Positions 28,324-33,901 of a DNA stretch of 64,000 bases are shown in pieces. Within the stretch, counting starts at the first letter, position 1. Every line of letters begins with the position of its first letter. The DNA lies in assembly GCA_016178705.1 (NCBI GenBank), contig JACOST010000009.1:248001-312000 (forward strand), given 5' to 3'. This DNA is from Deltaproteobacteria bacterium. Its GTDB lineage: Bacteria; Desulfobacterota; Binatia; HRBIN30; JACQVA1. The position numbers were made by a program, and so were the translations under genes. The notes beneath the pieces are model-generated. The model was not told the DNA's origin. It searched no databases and was given only the letters and a program-made list of their open reading frames with translations.

Positions 28324-28545
28324 ATGCCCAACGTTGAGATCGCGCAGTTGGCTTCCCTTCGCCCGATCACCGAGATCGCGGCATCGCTCGAAGTGACGCC
28401 CGCCGACTTTACATTCCGCTACACGACAGGCGAGAGCGCCACACTAGTCAAGGGAGAGGAACGGACGGAGTCGGCGTACGACACGTCCGGGAGCGCGAAG
28501 TTCGCACTGCCAAATGACGAGAACACGAAAGCCTCGGGCACGTAA
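28324..28545 (+). pseudogene. fhs: Fragment resembling the N-terminus of formate-tetrahydrofolate ligase
   Basis: From ATG 28324, with GGAGA seven bases upstream, the frame reads PNVEIAQLASLRPITEIAAS. This looks like the conserved first residues of formate-THF ligase (usually about 555 aa). After about 28-30 residues the similarity ends (near 28410) and unrelated sequence continues to a stop at 28545, overlapping the convergent vsr gene. No P-loop or other ligase segment occurs elsewhere in the window. It therefore looks like a ligase gene truncated at the edge of the accessory island. The assignment rests on a short stretch recognised by eye. Confidence 0.6.
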
Positions 28546-28857
28546 CGCGCCCACCACTGTCCGATCGCGCGCCCGATTCATTCGGAGCTTTCTCCGCCAA
28601 TAGACCTTGTTGCTCTTCGGGCTCATCGCCTTCGGGCAGCCCAGATGCGCATGCCAGAAGCAGCCGTGAACGAAAATCGCCCACCGTCTGGACCGATTCG
28701 CGAGGTCGGGAGAACCCGGAAGCCCCCGATTCGCGAGGCGGAAGCGTGCTCCAAGCGCATGCGTCATCGAACGCACCGCACGCTCCGGTCCGGTATCAGT
28801 CGACCTTACCGTCGCCATGCGGCGCGACACCGTCTCGGCGCTCTGGGGGCGAGGCAT
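28444..28857 (-). CDS. vsr: Very short patch repair (Vsr) endonuclease
   Basis: The 137-aa protein has the Vsr core: RRMATVRSTDTGPE near the N-terminus, catalytic Asp51 in GSPDL, FVHGCFWH (62-69) with the conserved metal/intercalation residues, and VIWQCEL near the end. Vsr nicks 5' of T in T:G mismatches produced by deamination of 5-methylcytosine, protecting Dcm sites. ATG 28857 shares one base with the dcm stop (TGATG), so the two are translationally coupled. It is the last gene of the four-gene operon. In the context of a GHKL ATPase it could instead be the restriction nuclease (inference). Confidence 0.93.
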   Translation of the reverse strand: MPRPQSAETVSRRMATVRSTDTGPERAVRSMTHALGARFRLANRGLPGSPDLANRSRRWAIFVHGCFWHAHLGCPKAMSPKSNKVYWRRKLRMNRARDRTVVGALRARGFRVLVIWQCELRAPGRVVRRLRPFLSLD

Positions 28858-30011
28858 CACGTCGGGCTCGCGAGAGCCTTCATCACCTCATTGGCGACTG
28901 CGTGGGCCAGCGCCGGAGGAACGGAGTTACCGATCTGCATAAACCCGTGCCACTTAGTTTCGTGAAAGACGAACCAGTCGGGGAACGAGTGCAAGCGTGC
29001 GGCCTCGCGCAGGCAGATGCAACGAGGGTAGTCCGGGTGGATCGGTCGCGGCGCCATGAACCGCCCATTCTCGAAGCCCGTCCCGGCGCGGAGCGTGGGC
29101 GCCAGCCCGGAACGTTTCAATCGAATGAAGCGGCTCACGGGATCGACGGCGCCTGGCTCGACCCGCTTGAATCTCTCGGTGGTCTTCAGCGAGTGCTCAG
29201 TACGCGCGAAGCCCGTGATCACTCGTGAACCGTTCTTCGCGGCTCCGCGCGATCCTCGGAGCTGACGCGCATAGGCACTAGGAGTTTCCAAACGTCCCGC
29301 ATAACCATCGCCATCCACGAGATCAGCTGGCTCGACGCACTTCAGATCGTCGATCGCAGCGCCGACGGTCACGCGCTTCTTGATGGGCTCCGGATACGTC
29401 GGCGCGATCTCTCCGCCACGGTAGCCTAAGATGAAGGCTCGCTTGCGTCGCTGCGGAACCCCGAAGTCAGCGGCATTCAAGCTGAGGATCGGGCCCACGA
29501 TCGAATAGCCGCCCTTTCGGAGGCGGCACTTGAACCTGGCAAGAATGGGCGCGTGCTGCGGCCGAAGCAGACCTGCGACGTTCTCCATGACAAAGTACCG
29601 CGGGCTCAGCTCAACGACGAGGCGCGCGAACTCCAGGACCATGAGGTTTCGCGGGTCGCGCGCGTTCCTCTTGCCGCCGATCGAGAACCCCTGGCAAGGA
29701 GGCCCGCCGAGGACAACTGCGATTTTCTCGCGCCCGAGGCCGGCCTTCCTTCTGATTGTCGCGCCCGTGAGATCCTTCACATGCTCGCAGATTGTCGTCG
29801 CGTTCGGGAAGTTTTTCTCGTGGACGTCAGTGCTGATCTTGCTCAGGTCGACCGCCGCAGCCAGGCGAAACCCAGCACGCTCAAAGCCGAGGGACATCCC
29901 GCCTGCGCCGCAGAACAGATCGATCGCGATCGGTCCACTCGATCTGGACCCTACCCTCCTTGAACGCTTCGACCGAGGAAGCGCCTTGGACGCGCGACGC
30001 GGCTTTTTCAC
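28857..30011 (-). CDS. dcm: DNA (cytosine-5)-methyltransferase
   Basis: The 384-aa protein shows the ordered m5C methyltransferase motifs: I DLFCGAGG (31-38), IV GGPPCQGFS with catalytic Cys106, VI ENV (143-145), VIII QRRKR (187-191) and X QIGNSVPP near 361-368. The target-recognition region lies about 215-330. The N-terminal 25 residues are Lys/Arg-rich. The GTG start at 30011 overlaps the upstream stop by four bases (GTGA). The recognition sequence cannot be predicted. The operon supplies no conventional restriction endonuclease apart from Vsr. Confidence 0.96.
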   Translation of the reverse strand: MKKPRRASKALPRSKRSRRVGSRSSGPIAIDLFCGAGGMSLGFERAGFRLAAAVDLSKISTDVHEKNFPNATTICEHVKDLTGATIRRKAGLGREKIAVVLGGPPCQGFSIGGKRNARDPRNLMVLEFARLVVELSPRYFVMENVAGLLRPQHAPILARFKCRLRKGGYSIVGPILSLNAADFGVPQRRKRAFILGYRGGEIAPTYPEPIKKRVTVGAAIDDLKCVEPADLVDGDGYAGRLETPSAYARQLRGSRGAAKNGSRVITGFARTEHSLKTTERFKRVEPGAVDPVSRFIRLKRSGLAPTLRAGTGFENGRFMAPRPIHPDYPRCICLREAARLHSFPDWFVFHETKWHGFMQIGNSVPPALAHAVANEVMKALASPT

Positions 30012-30973
30012 AGCTCGACCTCAGCAAAGAGGGGATAATAGCGATAGAGGTCCGCGTAGGACTCGATCTGCTCCTGCGCTAACGGGAACGGTAGATTCAC
30101 GTTCCTGCTCGGTAGGCGGCGATCGAGCTCTGTTCGCTCCTTTTGCGTCAGCGGGGGGATCGCGATCCGAAACAGTGCCTCTCCGCGGAGATACGGCAGA
30201 TGGCTCGAGAGTTCGCCCTCGTGGACATGCAGGGCATCATGGGGATTTAAGAGCGCGGCACCGATGGTGACCATCGGTGCGCCATCCCGATAGTGAAACG
30301 AGAAGAGCGGAGCCCAGGTGGGCTTCTCACTGACCGCGCGTCCGTTTTGAACCAGCAAGTTCTTGAGATGTGTCCACAGCAGCGAGACGAGCGTCGGCAT
30401 ATACTCGCTCTGGTGGGTCAATCCTGGACCTGGTTTCTGGGTTTTCGCGCCAGTCCTCTTCTTTGACGTGAAGGGCACAGCATCTCCGAAGACTCGTCGG
30501 AGCGCAGCCTCCCGTGCCTTCGCCTTGTCGCCGTCCTTCCAAGGTGGGCGGGCGTCATACGTGACGATCAGGACGCTGCCTGACGCGAGCTTCGAGGCAA
30601 GAAGTGCTATGTCTTGGAGCGATTCGCTCTCCGGCACGTAGTCGTAGTCGAGCCAGACGATGGACGCGTCTTTCCAGCTCAGCGACGGCAGGACTTCGGA
30701 GGAATTTCCCTCGACGACCCGCACGCACTTGAACGGTCGGTTGAAGACCGCCCGGCGGTATCCCTCTGTCCGCTCGACGGATGTGAGCGTCTTCACACCG
30801 AGCCGACGATGCGCGTAGAGAAAGTCGGAGAACCACATCGAGCCGAAGCCCACATAGCTGAAGCGCCTCTTTGGAAAGACTGACACGTAGCGGGCGAGCG
30901 CCTCGAAGATCATCTTGCGCTGAGTCCGCTTGTTGGGCCGAACCGCGTAGTTGAACTTCTCGTACGACTCCAT
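30008..30973 (-). CDS. Unknown Rossmann-like protein of the GHKL-Dcm-Vsr operon
   Basis: The 321-aa protein belongs to no family I can name with confidence. Residues about 35-115 look like a class I SAM-methyltransferase core: YVGFGSMWFSDF (40-51) in place of motif I, an acidic SVE (65-67) after strand 2, VVEGN (87-90), and WLDYDY (107-112) where motif IV would be. The later Lys-rich region (about 150-185) and an all-beta-looking C-terminus are unassigned. It starts seven bases after the GHKL gene stop and ends overlapping dcm, so it is an integral member of the operon. It could be a second modification enzyme or a methyltransferase-fold adaptor. Confidence 0.75.
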   Translation of the reverse strand: MESYEKFNYAVRPNKRTQRKMIFEALARYVSVFPKRRFSYVGFGSMWFSDFLYAHRRLGVKTLTSVERTEGYRRAVFNRPFKCVRVVEGNSSEVLPSLSWKDASIVWLDYDYVPESESLQDIALLASKLASGSVLIVTYDARPPWKDGDKAKAREAALRRVFGDAVPFTSKKRTGAKTQKPGPGLTHQSEYMPTLVSLLWTHLKNLLVQNGRAVSEKPTWAPLFSFHYRDGAPMVTIGAALLNPHDALHVHEGELSSHLPYLRGEALFRIAIPPLTQKERTELDRRLPSRNVNLPFPLAQEQIESYADLYRYYPLFAEVEL

Positions 30974-30980
30974 TGAGCAC

Positions 30981-32390
30981 TCACTCGACTTTGTTCGCGT
31001 AGAAGTAGTCGAACGTCTTGATTCCGACCTGCGCGGCGGGAAGCGCTGGATCCCCGAGGGCCGCCGCCGCCTTCGCCACTTGGCGCTTTGGCTTCTGATA
31101 GAGAATATTGACGGTCCCCTGGGTTGTGCCCGGGACAGCGGGGGTCTTCATCTGCTGTTGTGTAGAAACTTCGGTCGCCCTCACCGGCGGCGCCGAGCGT
31201 TCGATCTTCTTGGCGCCCTCAAGGTTGGCCTTGCGAGTCCGTGAGTAGCTGATGTACGCGCGCGCCGCCTCCTGCATTCGTGCGCGCGCGCGCCGGTAGA
31301 CGATGCTATCTACATCGATGTCGTTCTTCGTCGTCGTCCACGGCAACGCATATGGCTCCTCAGAGCGAAACGACACGATTCCAATGAAGCCATTGTACTG
31401 CGGGTGCCATTGAGGAAACCTAGTAAGGCCCCAACCCGTTCGTTCTGTCTTGTCGGCAGAAAGGACAACCCGGTTGTTGCAGAGCACATACCAGCCCCAC
31501 GCCGAAGCGTCCTCGTCTTCTTCCGAGTCGGGCCGCGCGCCAGCGGCAGTGGTCGCCGCCCCCGCCCATATCTCTCCCTCGACCTCTACCTTGGATGGCT
31601 TCGCTGATGGCCTCGGGACAGACTCCTTCCAACGCTGATGGAGCGGCTGGAATCCCCTCCCTTGAAGGAACGTGAACTCGGTCGGCTTGACCTTCGCGCC
31701 GTTGATTCGAAGTTCAAGTCCCTGATCGAGAAACACCGCGTATGTGCGCGCAGCTGCCTCAATCAAGCGCGTCACGAATGCGTCCGTGTCGAGTTCTTGT
31801 GCCACGCTCGGGTGGAGGTTCTTCACCTCGATGGTCGTGCCGGGGTCGTTCGATGAAGGTTTCGCAGTCGTGAGTTCCAGATTCCAGTCCTGGGGCTTGG
31901 CTGCCCAGGCGTCGACGTCGACGTTCATCACAAACCCGTCGTCGATCGTGTTCGATTTGACCTCGAACTCCTTGCCCAGTTTGAAAAGCGCACGCTTCAT
32001 ACCGATGCCGTAGATCCCGATACCCGCCTCCGTATCTGCGTCAGTATGCTCGCTCGGGTCCCGCCCGAAGTTGAATGCGTATTCGCACGCGATGTCGACC
32101 GGAATGCCATCGCAGTTGTCGCGAATGCGAAACGACGACCTCGAACACTTGAGCTCGATCTTGTAGCCTCTGTACCTGGAGCTCCCAGAACTCAGCGGAT
32201 GCGGCTTCGGCGACTTTGCGCGTCTCTGCGCCGGCGACTCGTCGGTCGCGCGCGTTGCCCCGTCGACCGAGTTGTCGATCAAGTCCAAGACGCAGGCTCC
32301 GAGTGAGATGTCGCGGGTGATCATGTCGATGAAGAAGCGTTTGTGCGGCGTCGCCTTGACAGGCATGACCTTACCGGCTTCCAAAGACAT
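30981..32390 (-). CDS. GHKL-fold (MutL/MORC/Hsp90-type) ATPase
   Basis: The 469-aa protein has a Bergerat ATP-binding fold: N-box VLDLIDNSVDGA (34-46), G1 motif DNCDGI (91-96) and the glycine-rich G2 lid GIGIYGIGMKRALFKLG (123-139). A probable transducer domain follows (about 190-370), then a low-complexity tail. The usual catalytic Glu of the N-box is replaced by Asp. GHKL ATPases of this sort are known from restriction-modification loci related to eukaryotic MORC proteins. ATG 32390 is preferred to ATG 32396, which abuts the GGAGG. It is the first gene of the operon. Confidence 0.88.
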   Translation of the reverse strand: MSLEAGKVMPVKATPHKRFFIDMITRDISLGACVLDLIDNSVDGATRATDESPAQRRAKSPKPHPLSSGSSRYRGYKIELKCSRSSFRIRDNCDGIPVDIACEYAFNFGRDPSEHTDADTEAGIGIYGIGMKRALFKLGKEFEVKSNTIDDGFVMNVDVDAWAAKPQDWNLELTTAKPSSNDPGTTIEVKNLHPSVAQELDTDAFVTRLIEAAARTYAVFLDQGLELRINGAKVKPTEFTFLQGRGFQPLHQRWKESVPRPSAKPSKVEVEGEIWAGAATTAAGARPDSEEDEDASAWGWYVLCNNRVVLSADKTERTGWGLTRFPQWHPQYNGFIGIVSFRSEEPYALPWTTTKNDIDVDSIVYRRARARMQEAARAYISYSRTRKANLEGAKKIERSAPPVRATEVSTQQQMKTPAVPGTTQGTVNILYQKPKRQVAKAAAALGDPALPAAQVGIKTFDYFYANKVE

Positions 32391-32459
32391 CGCCATCCTC
32401 CCCCCATTTTGGAGCGCTAGTCGTGGAGCGTGTCGCCTGCACCCCGACTGTTACCGCGC

Positions 32460-32536: not shown

Positions 32537-32860
32537 TCAGTGCCCGACGCCTTGGCCTTCGCCCCACTCGCTCGCGCGCACGGCAAACGCTTCGGCGTAG
32601 CGCGGCCAGTCGTGCAAGGTTTCGGGATCGAAGTCGGCGCCACTGGGCCAGACGAGAGTTTTCACCTCGCGGTCAAGGCGCACTTGGTTGAACACGGATA
32701 GCTCCCGGAGTGGTCCGTAGATTTCGCCCGCGAGCACTGGCTTGAAGTTGATAGCTTGCTCGGTTCCGTCGTCAAAATGGACACGCAGGGTGTAGGGCGC
32801 GGTGATCTCGAACGACGCGACACGGTAGATTTGATGCCCTGTCTCGAACAACACCCTCAC
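32537..32860 (-). CDS. DUF2442 domain protein
   Basis: The 107-aa protein matches the DUF2442 pattern: a strand LRVHFDDGTEQAINF, a Leu/Phe-rich middle (LRELSVFNQVRLD) and the near-invariant LVWPSGADFDPETL close to the end. These small proteins are common in accessory regions and are often paired with another small gene; their role is unknown, with an antitoxin-like role sometimes suggested. GTG 32860 follows a GGGAG. It lies between the defence operon and the ORF6N genes. Confidence 0.8.
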   Translation of the reverse strand: MRVLFETGHQIYRVASFEITAPYTLRVHFDDGTEQAINFKPVLAGEIYGPLRELSVFNQVRLDREVKTLVWPSGADFDPETLHDWPRYAEAFAVRASEWGEGQGVGH

Positions 32861-32959: not shown

Positions 32960-33475
32960 TCACGGCGCCTCGCGAAAGCCAATCCGCCGCGGCTTGACCT
33001 TCGGCGGCGTCATCAACTGTCGGATCGCATCGAAGACCACTTTGAACTGCGCGTCGTACTTCCGCTCCAACGCCTCCAGCTTGCGGGCGAGGTCTTTGTG
33101 CGTCGCCAGCATCTCGCGCAGCTTCACGAAAGCACGAACGATCTCGATGCTTGCGGCCACAGCCACCGGGCTGTTGAGCACCGACGCGAGCATGAGCGCC
33201 CCATGCTCCGTGAATGCATACGGGCGCACCGGAGAGAACTTCAAGCTCCGGAGGTAGTCGCAATCTGCGACCACCTCCGCTTTCTCCTCACCTGTGAGCT
33301 GAAACATGAAGTCCGCAGGGAAACGAGCGCGATTGCGCTTCACCTGCTCGTTCAGGCGCTTCGTAGGAACCGCATAGACACGCGCCAGATCCATATCCAG
33401 CATCACGCGCTGCCCACGAAGCACGAAGATCAGTTCGACAACGTGCTCGACCGTCAGCATGGGCGGTTGGTTCAT
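32960..33475 (-). CDS. ORF6N-domain protein (phage antirepressor-like)
   Basis: The 171-aa protein carries an N-terminal ORF6N DNA-binding domain (about 8-95), with [33 protein letters not shown] and the YAFTEHGALMLASVLNS block. A C-terminal coiled-coil-like helix (about 120-150) follows. ORF6N/KilA-N proteins are typical of phages and mobile elements, where they act as antirepressors or regulators. Its ATG overlaps the decayed stop of the frameshifted paralogue upstream (ATGA), so the two were once a tandem pair. Confidence 0.9.
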   Translation of the reverse strand: MNQPPMLTVEHVVELIFVLRGQRVMLDMDLARVYAVPTKRLNEQVKRNRARFPADFMFQLTGEEKAEVVADCDYLRSLKFSPVRPYAFTEHGALMLASVLNSPVAVAASIEIVRAFVKLREMLATHKDLARKLEALERKYDAQFKVVFDAIRQLMTPPKVKPRRIGFREAP

Positions 33476-33901
33476 CGTCGCAACTCGCGGAGCTTCAGCA
33501 ACGCGCGCATACCGCGACGTTCACCTGCACCGCTCGCTTGCTCCGCAACACGCTGGACAGCATCGCCACGCCCTGCTCCGTGAACGCGTAGGGCAGTACC
33601 GCCGCCCGCCACGGCCGGCGTTTGAGGTCGCAGATTGCGACCTCAAATTTGAGGTGCCAATTTGGTACCTCAAACGCTCGGACTCCTCCGGTGTGAGCTG
33701 GAACATGAAGTCGGCCGGGAACCTCGCGGTGTTGCGACGCACTGCTCGATTCAATGTCTTGGTTTCGACGCCGTAGAGTTCCGCGAGGTCCGCATCGAGC
33801 ATCACCTTGTGCCCACGGATCAACAGGATCGCCCGCTCGATGCGCTCGCTCGATACGTCCACATCGATGCTGTCGCCCGGCTTGGTCATATAGTCCACCA
33901 C
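33472..33901 (-). pseudogene. Frameshifted ORF6N-domain paralogue
   Basis: The first 95 or so codons read a normal ORF6N N-terminus ([34 protein letters not shown]). Near 33600-33612 the reading frame shifts: the conserved [19 protein letters not shown] block is intact but in another frame. Near 33510 a second one-base shift separates it from [11 protein letters not shown] and the original stop, which overlaps the neighbour's ATG. Two single-base frameshifts make it a pseudogene unless they are assembly errors. Its start is GTG 33901 or ATG 33889. Confidence 0.8.

Follow-up and report, generated by a model that had tools for sequence, protein, structure and literature searches.

A four-gene operon lies in the 64,000-nucleotide stretch of Deltaproteobacteria DNA analysed here (hereafter the window). 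It encodes an ATPase of the GHKL class with the features of a MORC protein, a protein of the Pfam family Methyltransf_35 (MT35), a Dcm-like C5-cytosine DNA methyltransferase (Dcm) and a Vsr endonuclease. The core of the operon is the GHKL-MT35 pair and not Dcm-Vsr: in all 57 MT35 loci that we compared, a GHKL gene stands beside MT35 on the same strand, and the adjoining DNA-modification gene changes from one group of loci to another. On balance we think that the operon is probably a modification-guided, restriction-like defence against foreign DNA. The four genes are as follows.

30981..32396, minus strand: gene 1, MORC-type GHKL ATPase P0001, 471 amino acids (HATPase_c_3, PF13589, 37.9 bits, cut-off 25; model with a predicted local distance difference test score, pLDDT, of 89.3)
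30008..30973, minus strand: gene 2, MT35 protein P0002, 321 amino acids, class I methyltransferase fold by prediction (PF20553, 268.6 bits, cut-off 27; model pLDDT 90.7)
28857..30011, minus strand: gene 3, Dcm-like methyltransferase P0003, 384 amino acids, GTG start (PF00145, 194.3 bits, cut-off 22; PADLOC MTase_II, 417 bits)
28444..28857, minus strand: gene 4, Vsr endonuclease P0004, start at ATG 28857 or GTG 28860 (138 amino acids for 28860-28444; PF03852, 76.2 bits, cut-off 27; TIGR00632, 120.4, cut-off 97.85)

The genes, identified by profiles, are co-directional and run leftward from 32396 to 28444. Genes 1 and 2 are separated by 7 bases, GTGA at 30011-30008 is common to genes 2 and 3, and TGATG is common to genes 3 and 4 when Vsr starts at ATG 28857. 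A preliminary description of this DNA had proposed a leftward operon with this spacing, and the coordinates of the open reading frames (ORFs) bear it out. Gene 1 may start at 32396 or at the second in-frame ATG, 32390, both being equally possible. ORF calling was mechanical, without a gene caller. Starts are therefore approximate, as are some of the overlaps, and where Vsr seems to be missing a short ORF may have been overlooked or the flank may be cut. The operon is more than a chance arrangement, because its nearest relatives in other phyla keep the gene order: GHKL-MT35-Dcm-Vsr in L011 (Acidobacteriota) and GHKL-MT35-Dcm in L012 (Myxococcota). The genome of the window (6.1 Mb, 33 contigs) has one match each for MT35, Dcm and Vsr, P0003 and P0004 being the only PF00145 and PF03852 matches reported in it.

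The loci were collected with profiles. P0002 as a single query had no relatives in genome_contigs, a set with one genome for each of 84,980 species, and a six-row alignment (A2) was too divergent for scanning that set; alignment A3 gave 44 loci in a profile-guided scan. A further 11 distinct loci came from two scans of viral contigs. With tblastn, MT35 queries matched only two plasmid records and one phage record. The 57-locus set consists of the genome_contigs and viral loci together with one phage, two plasmid and one genome-search locus, minus the window and copies. Excluded from the counts are the window (L001), L005, L006 and L056 (100% copies of L028, L051 and L023), and L009, whose contig starts at MT35 and which is 98% like L015. 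L047 and L048 have 5,366 identical bases, yet make up two of the 57 loci and two of the 8 with an N4/N6-type methylase; L058 is a close relative of L061 (93%), and L002 of L015 (92%), each over about 4 kb, and all four are counted separately.

The GHKL and MT35 ORFs overlap or are at most 9 bases apart in 56 of the 57 loci. A check independent of our alignments applied the PF20553 model to 1,484 genomes from four phyla, a number that excludes the genome of the window and the three chosen as centres. It found carriers at 3/296, 4/397, 3/397 and 3/394 in the four phylum samples, and all 13 have GHKL directly beside MT35; three of these (L005-L007) coincide with genomes or loci of the 57, and the other ten are new and not copies. 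MT35 is rare (about 1%) and scattered. The preliminary description had held that the operon is more than Dcm-Vsr repair, and the constancy of the pair in both samples agrees with that view; the outcome named there as its refutation, a lack of any conserved association other than Dcm-Vsr, did not occur.

What varies is the modification gene. Within 3.5 kb of the pair, Dcm and Vsr are found together in 26 of the 57 loci, Dcm alone in 15, an N4/N6-type methylase in 8, Vsr alone in one and none of these in seven. When the neighbourhood is considered more broadly, 54 loci have a DNA-modification gene (Dcm 41, N4/N6 8, Dnd 4, DISARM 1); of the three that do not, L013 and L040 are near contig ends and L031 has an incomplete GHKL. 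Beyond 3.5 kb, Dcm is met once and Vsr twice in the set, so that a background level does not account for the near counts. The calls of N4/N6 loci come from models of our own, and Pfam or PADLOC confirmed those that were scanned (L005, L050, L054 and L092). In the Dnd loci (L027, L029, L035 and L041), the pair is beside the DndC/DndD phosphorothioation genes, and three of the four also have PbeA-like genes; the Dnd names in L041, and DndC in L029, come from clustering with L027 and from ORF order, not from a PADLOC scan. On a Microvirga plasmid (L003), the pair is part of a class-1 DISARM locus, in the order Dcm-Vsr-DrmD-MmeI-type-GHKL-MT35-DrmA-DUF1998-DrmC. The Pfam-sampled carriers repeat the pattern, with Dcm in six, N4/N6 methylases in five (three being L005-L007) and DISARM in one; a further carrier has a SNF2-like helicase and, at a distance of 4.2 kb, an N4/N6-type methylase. 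The DISARM case, L091, has the same order as L003 (DrmD-DrmMI-GHKL-MT35-DrmA-DrmB-DrmC). With Dcm, N4/N6 methylases, Dnd/Pbe and DISARM as neighbours, the restriction or defence setting suggested earlier from the letters alone is upheld.

Such a wide variation of partner chemistry might also be seen if the pair were modification-dependent (type IV-like) and attacked modified invaders, the local modification gene being an unrelated neighbour. However, attack on 5-methylcytosine (5mC), N4/N6-methylated or phosphorothioated DNA beside a gene that makes the mark would hit self, and a partner present in 54 of 57 loci is a better fit with protection. We consider type IV-like action highly improbable.

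Some of the loci merit separate mention. L003 and L091, with the pair between DrmMI and DrmA, may define a DISARM subtype. L035 (3327-8648) is the Dnd locus without a PbeA call, and its interval from DndD to GHKL-MT35 includes an ORF matching the mad8, DndH and HerA models. In L087 (11411-16552), an operon divergent from GHKL-MT35 consists of an unassigned 469-amino-acid ORF, a SNF2-like helicase, a 276-amino-acid ORF with weak PD-T4-1 and PDC-S36 matches, and an N4/N6-type methylase; it may be an unlisted type of restriction-modification (R-M) system. HNH-type ORFs occur in L018 (12516-13427), with homologues in L031, L032, L038 and L053, in L085 (11468-12400) and, as a weak match, in L086 (3233-4015). 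The Pfam scan that found HNH_2 was of L018 only, the other ORFs being named by homology; each is a candidate nuclease in its branch.

The two genes of the core co-diverge. In mirror-tree comparisons over 41 sets with Dcm, the window included, the correlation between GHKL and MT35 is 0.93, and the values with Dcm are 0.32 and 0.41; Dcm thus co-diverges weakly. On a joint GHKL-MT35 tree (55 rows; a quick tree, with 9 of 51 inner branches open), the partner label changes at least five times. The four Dnd loci are at three separate places, either by separate gains or by gain and later replacements. The window's nearest relatives on the tree belong to Acidobacteriota and Myxococcota, which speaks for lateral transfer of the operon.

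The set is also carried by phages. PfAC20, a filamentous phage of P. aeruginosa, has GHKL-MT35-Dcm; the published account credits it with no more than a cytosine methyltransferase gene, as a single piece of an incomplete system (PMC11878078). Replication-initiation and integrase genes are common to PfAC20, L015 (Pseudomonas yangonensis) and the viral contigs L058, L059 and L061, and the Zot-like and integrase genes of L015 match PHROGs. Since PfAC20 and L015 are far from L058, L059 and L061 on the tree, Pf-like filamentous phages are likely to have acquired the set at least twice. The ratio of nonsynonymous to synonymous substitution rates (dN/dS) is 0.055-0.065 for GHKL and MT35 in the close pairs L002/L015 and L058/L061, and 0.12 for Dcm in one of them; only these two pairs could be used, three more distant ones being saturated at synonymous sites. 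Such low values indicate that the phage-borne GHKL and MT35 genes are maintained by purifying selection. PHROGs lists both families as entries without assigned function (phrog_19983 and phrog_20521). ORF4 of PfAC20, which occupies the position that Vsr has elsewhere, matches nothing in PHROGs, and the GHKL-MT35 DNA of PfAC20 has no match in E. coli genomes at the DNA level, the only level tested.

Carriage by Pf-like filamentous phages and plasmids could also mean that the set protects or regulates mobile DNA, with Dcm (and MT35) modifying phage or prophage DNA to shield it from host restriction, or the MORC protein silencing genes epigenetically, and with no attack on foreign DNA. Eukaryotic MORCs function in silencing, which would suit the latter version. 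However, the 44 records from genome_contigs are contigs of bacteria or archaea and are not shown to be prophage, and the pair is also inside DISARM and Dnd loci, where marks serve to discriminate self from non-self. A purely protective or regulatory role is thus improbable in our estimate.

The assignment of gene 1 to the MORC proteins rests on motifs and on fold. Many GHKL proteins have Glu at the position of motif N1 where P0001 has Asp. The two elements of interest are placed as follows.

32271..32285, minus strand: ATPase motif N1, residues 38-42, D-L-I-D-N (alignment of 57 rows)
31464..31496, minus strand: MORC signature GhXhhpXXRhl, residues 301-311, a strict match in the window

In the alignment, position 38 is D in 51 rows, E in four and a gap in two, and N42 is present in 55. 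The residues of motifs N1, N2 and G1 (D41/N42, D93, G97, G127, G130 and G132) are kept in 55 of 57 and all are present in the window protein; the basic residue of the S5 domain, K357, is in all 57. The MORC signature is matched strictly at the same column in 53 of the 57 aligned GHKLs, the window included, compared to 35 of 5,700 shuffled sequences and five of 375 other ORFs of 300-700 amino acids. It is the defining MORC signature of a 2008 study (PMC2292703). The best VIA fold matches of the P0001 model are MORC3 (Z 22.6, 4.0 Å, 299 residues) and MORC4 (Z 22.0). The MORC3/4 and MORC2 entries align over 291-343 residues with Z 19.2-22.6, MORC2 and Hsp90 both being near 20.5, and TopoVI-B and GyrB match less well than Hsp90. 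The VIA rows cover the protein to about residue 420, and the C-terminus of the model has two helices following a stretch of lower confidence. The preliminary description had called gene 1 a GHKL ATPase like MORC or MutL; the class stands and the likeness is sharpened to MORC. Profile scans matched no nuclease family in P0001 or its aligned relatives, although the last 66 residues were not tested alone, and the DUF4263 nuclease of paraMORC3/Shedu has no match in P0001. MzaB is the sole PADLOC family matched among 51 GHKLs (E 0.001), weakly and in 14 of them. A second, longer GHKL with the MORC signature (582-605 amino acids), having an extra C-terminal part, is found near Dcm in three loci (L019:6369-8117, L037:6736-8490 and L045:6230-8047).

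The second member of the pair has the conserved elements of a methyltransferase fold.

30839..30850, minus strand: motif-I-like loop of MT35, residues 42-45, G-F-G-S (G42 in 57/57, G44 in 56/57, S45 in 55/57)
30641..30655, minus strand: motif-IV-like W-L-D-Y-D of MT35, residues 107-111 (W107 and D109 in 57/57)

Invariant in the 57-row alignment are R12, K15, R19, Y40, G42, D50, R74, N78, P80, W107, D109, E279 and P314, which is consistent with binding of S-adenosylmethionine (SAM) and a polar substrate. Nearly all the VIA fold matches listed are SAM-dependent methyltransferases or proteins of that fold; the rows cover MT35 mainly to residue 247. A methyltransferase activity is thus putative, judged from fold and SAM-type residues. 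The protein had at first been described as Rossmann-like, of methyltransferase fold and unassigned. The fold holds, but a family does exist for it (all 55 members of alignment A7 match PF20553 at E 0.001), with a function that is only putative. No PADLOC model matches any of 55 MT35s (E 0.001), no nuclease family is matched in P0002 or its aligned relatives, a PDB sequence search with the MT35 profile gave no matches at E 1, and no open-access literature was found with the name or accession of the family. Trm1 tRNA methylases head the VIA list (four rows, Z 14.1-15.3; the best 15.3, at 3.8 Å over 216 residues), only slightly ahead of the next methyltransferases, which reach Z 14.0 at most. An origin from Trm1 was considered and rejected at the level of sequence: the likeness is that of fold, there is no PF02005 (TRM) match, and hhalign against a single archaeal Trm1 gives a probability of 0.4%.

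Vsr repairs the T:G mismatches that arise by deamination of 5-methylcytosine. Of the 41 Dcm loci, 26 have it within 3.5 kb, whereas none of the 12 that have N4/N6 or Dnd modification does (Fisher p 1.0e-4; 1.1e-3 with the N4/N6 loci alone; 26/41 vs. 0/11 and 2.6e-4 when L047 and L048 are counted as one), the p-values being indicative only, as the loci are related. Vsr is absent within that distance from 15 of the 41 Dcm loci (L004 has one at 4.2 kb, and some flanks are cut), and it was not called in five inovirus-type sets. Given the contrast between the two groups of loci, Vsr is best read as the repair partner of Dcm and not as a general effector.

The preliminary description had considered Vsr as the nuclease of the system. 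In that case the MORC ATPase would recruit Vsr, in the Dcm branch, to unmodified DNA. A nuclease is indeed near the pair in most Dcm loci, and Vsr-type nuclease domains are known from ARMADA helicases, according to the available text of PMC12458937. But the Dcm loci without Vsr include the five inovirus-type ones, Vsr does not come with other modification types, and the Vsr label changes at least nine times on the tree within the Dcm loci. We rejected Vsr as a general effector on its absence from the loci with other marks, and regard an effector role in the Dcm branch as quite unlikely.

The combination of Dcm with Vsr, characteristic of very-short-patch repair, is present and accounts for two of the four genes of the operon. 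The whole might be a self-contained repair kit, in which GHKL substitutes for MutL in stimulating Vsr at Dcm-made T:G mismatches; Dcm and Vsr are adjacent and are the sole copies reported in the genome, and in E. coli MutL and Vsr act together, according to PMC2292703 and the work that it cites. Against this, the genome has its own MutL elsewhere (N- and C-terminal matches in one frame), the same pair comes with N4/N6 or Dnd modification without Vsr nearby, GHKL has the MORC signature, and MT35 is left without a place. On these counts the repair kit was rejected as the principal explanation, and we give it very little credence.

We thus return to modification-guided defence. The restriction half appears to need a self mark, since the pairing is obligate, the methylase co-diverges weakly, marks are exchanged and pairs without a mark are nearly absent. 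In the scheme that we infer, comprising the function against foreign DNA, the reading of a self mark, the clamp and the role of MT35, the MORC ATPase and MT35 would be one functional unit, the restriction half, and the adjoining modification gene (a C5-cytosine methylase in the window) an exchangeable marking half. Upon ATP binding, the ATPase would dimerise and be loaded as a clamp on DNA without the self mark. MT35 would sense the DNA or the clamp, or add a second mark to either; this is our guess. Foreign DNA, once clamped or compacted, would be neither replicated nor transcribed, without need of a nuclease, and where a branch has HNH, Pbe or DISARM genes the attack may be completed by a nuclease or helicase. 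Vsr would mend the mismatches left by the mark itself when deaminated, and hence come with Dcm only. We favour an ATP-gated clamp on unmarked DNA because PfAC20 has the pair and a methylase without a recognised nuclease family; in PMC2292703 an action of this general kind was put forward as DNA looping. The most ambitious version, which we advance tentatively and consider rather unlikely as a whole, is that of a nuclease-free, exchangeable MORC-MT35 silencing engine that reads several self marks (5mC, N4/N6-methyl, phosphorothioate and the mark of DISARM) and topologically clamps unmarked invading DNA.

Several points weigh against modification-guided defence by a clamp. The clamp action is borrowed by analogy from eukaryotic MORCs, and the VIA matches of Hsp90 (up to Z 20.6) are within about 2 Z of the MORC ones. 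The signature is unmatched in four of the 57 GHKLs (L017, L041, L043 and L049, the contig of the last beginning inside GHKL). With D38 instead of Glu, hydrolysis could be slow or absent, MT35 might be catalytically idle, and a small DNA-acting domain could be hidden in GHKL residues 406-471, a segment not folded or searched alone. HNH-type ORFs are near the pair in seven loci, one a weak match, and helicases and nuclease-type genes are also present in the Dnd and DISARM loci. The pair is not everywhere intact: besides the incomplete GHKL of L031, the MT35 of L090 is split into two ORFs, and about 3 kb separates GHKL from MT35 in L004, a Sinorhizobium plasmid, where the starts of the ORFs in between look transposase-like and the gap is probably an insertion. 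The partner changes could in part be one gain with later losses. Finally, the flanking ORFs of the window locus include no mobile element apart from two ORF6N ORFs.

Six neighbouring ORFs were identified around the operon. An RNB-type exonuclease gene is on one flank; DUF2442, two ORF6N ORFs and an enoyl-CoA hydratase gene are on the other, and one of the six has no match.

32537-32860, minus strand: DUF2442 ORF, upstream, between the operon and the enoyl-CoA hydratase gene
32960-33475 and 33521-33901, minus strand: two ORF6N-domain ORFs, directly upstream of the operon

The ORF6N and DUF2442 ORFs may be the remnant of a mobile element.

Restriction-modification usually consists of a methylase and its cognate nuclease. 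Among the four operon proteins the methylase P0003 is present, but Vsr is the only nuclease and no cognate type II endonuclease is recognisable. In the type represented by the window, the invariant half would be a MORC ATPase with a methyltransferase-fold partner, and it is the mark that varies, from cytosine methylation to phosphorothioation. If this is true, the role of bacterial MORCs, a long-open question, becomes testable with the three genes of the PfAC20 set, and Methyltransf_35 gains a function. PfAC20 would then carry a conserved three-gene core, not one gene of an incomplete system. Bacterial defence would also be linked to eukaryotic MORC-based silencing, with a prokaryotic counterpart that is even a cargo weapon of filamentous phages.

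The operon can be compared to several known systems. One kind is that of the MORC and paraMORC genes that, together with DNA methylases and Vsr, were predicted to be R-M systems in 2008 (PMC2292703). In the text of that study as available, those operons resemble that of the window in that DNA methylases and Vsr adjoin a MORC-type ATPase, of GHKL+S5 architecture and bearing the signature; some of them, a minority, lack a helicase, and DNA looping is proposed. The same text names no methyltransferase-fold partner beyond the DNA methylases, and no Dnd, DISARM or phage copies, although overlap with its figure (with uncharacterised X1-X3 and Z1-Z3) or supplement is possible. As far as the open-access literature goes, supplements being outside it, three points look new: that MT35 is an obligate partner, that Dcm, N4/N6, Dnd and DISARM replace one another beside the pair, and that inoviruses are recognised as carriers of the set. 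VcSduA (paraMORC3-Shedu) is also a MORC/paraMORC GHKL ATPase, with demonstrated anti-phage activity, and by the published account available is an example of a paraMORC that takes part in defence against phages; it has a fused DUF4263 nuclease in one protein, whereas P0001 matches no nuclease family (PMC12137116). MZA (MzaABCDE) has a MutL-like GHKL component, but the MzaB score of P0001 is 26.2 bits, far below the equivalog cut-off of 850. The HEF_HK/Response_reg_2 elements likewise have HATPase_c_3 genes with C5-methylases, Vsr and HNH_2 nearby; their partner, in the available text, is Response_reg_2 and not Methyltransf_35, and P0001 and P0002 match neither domain (PMC8011034). In class-1 DISARM the pair is an inner part in L003 and L091, whereas no Drm gene (DrmA, DrmB or DrmC) adjoins the window operon, the flanking ORFs belonging to other families. 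In DndCDE-PbeABCD, modification marks self, and the restriction half stops replication without cutting (PMC6459918). Of the Pbe proteins described there, one is a PLD-helicase, one is SMC-like and two are small, and pbe cassettes may, according to its authors, pair with methylases; here, three of the four Dnd loci have PbeA-like genes in addition to GHKL-MT35. PbeABCD provides a precedent for modification-guided defence without DNA cleavage.

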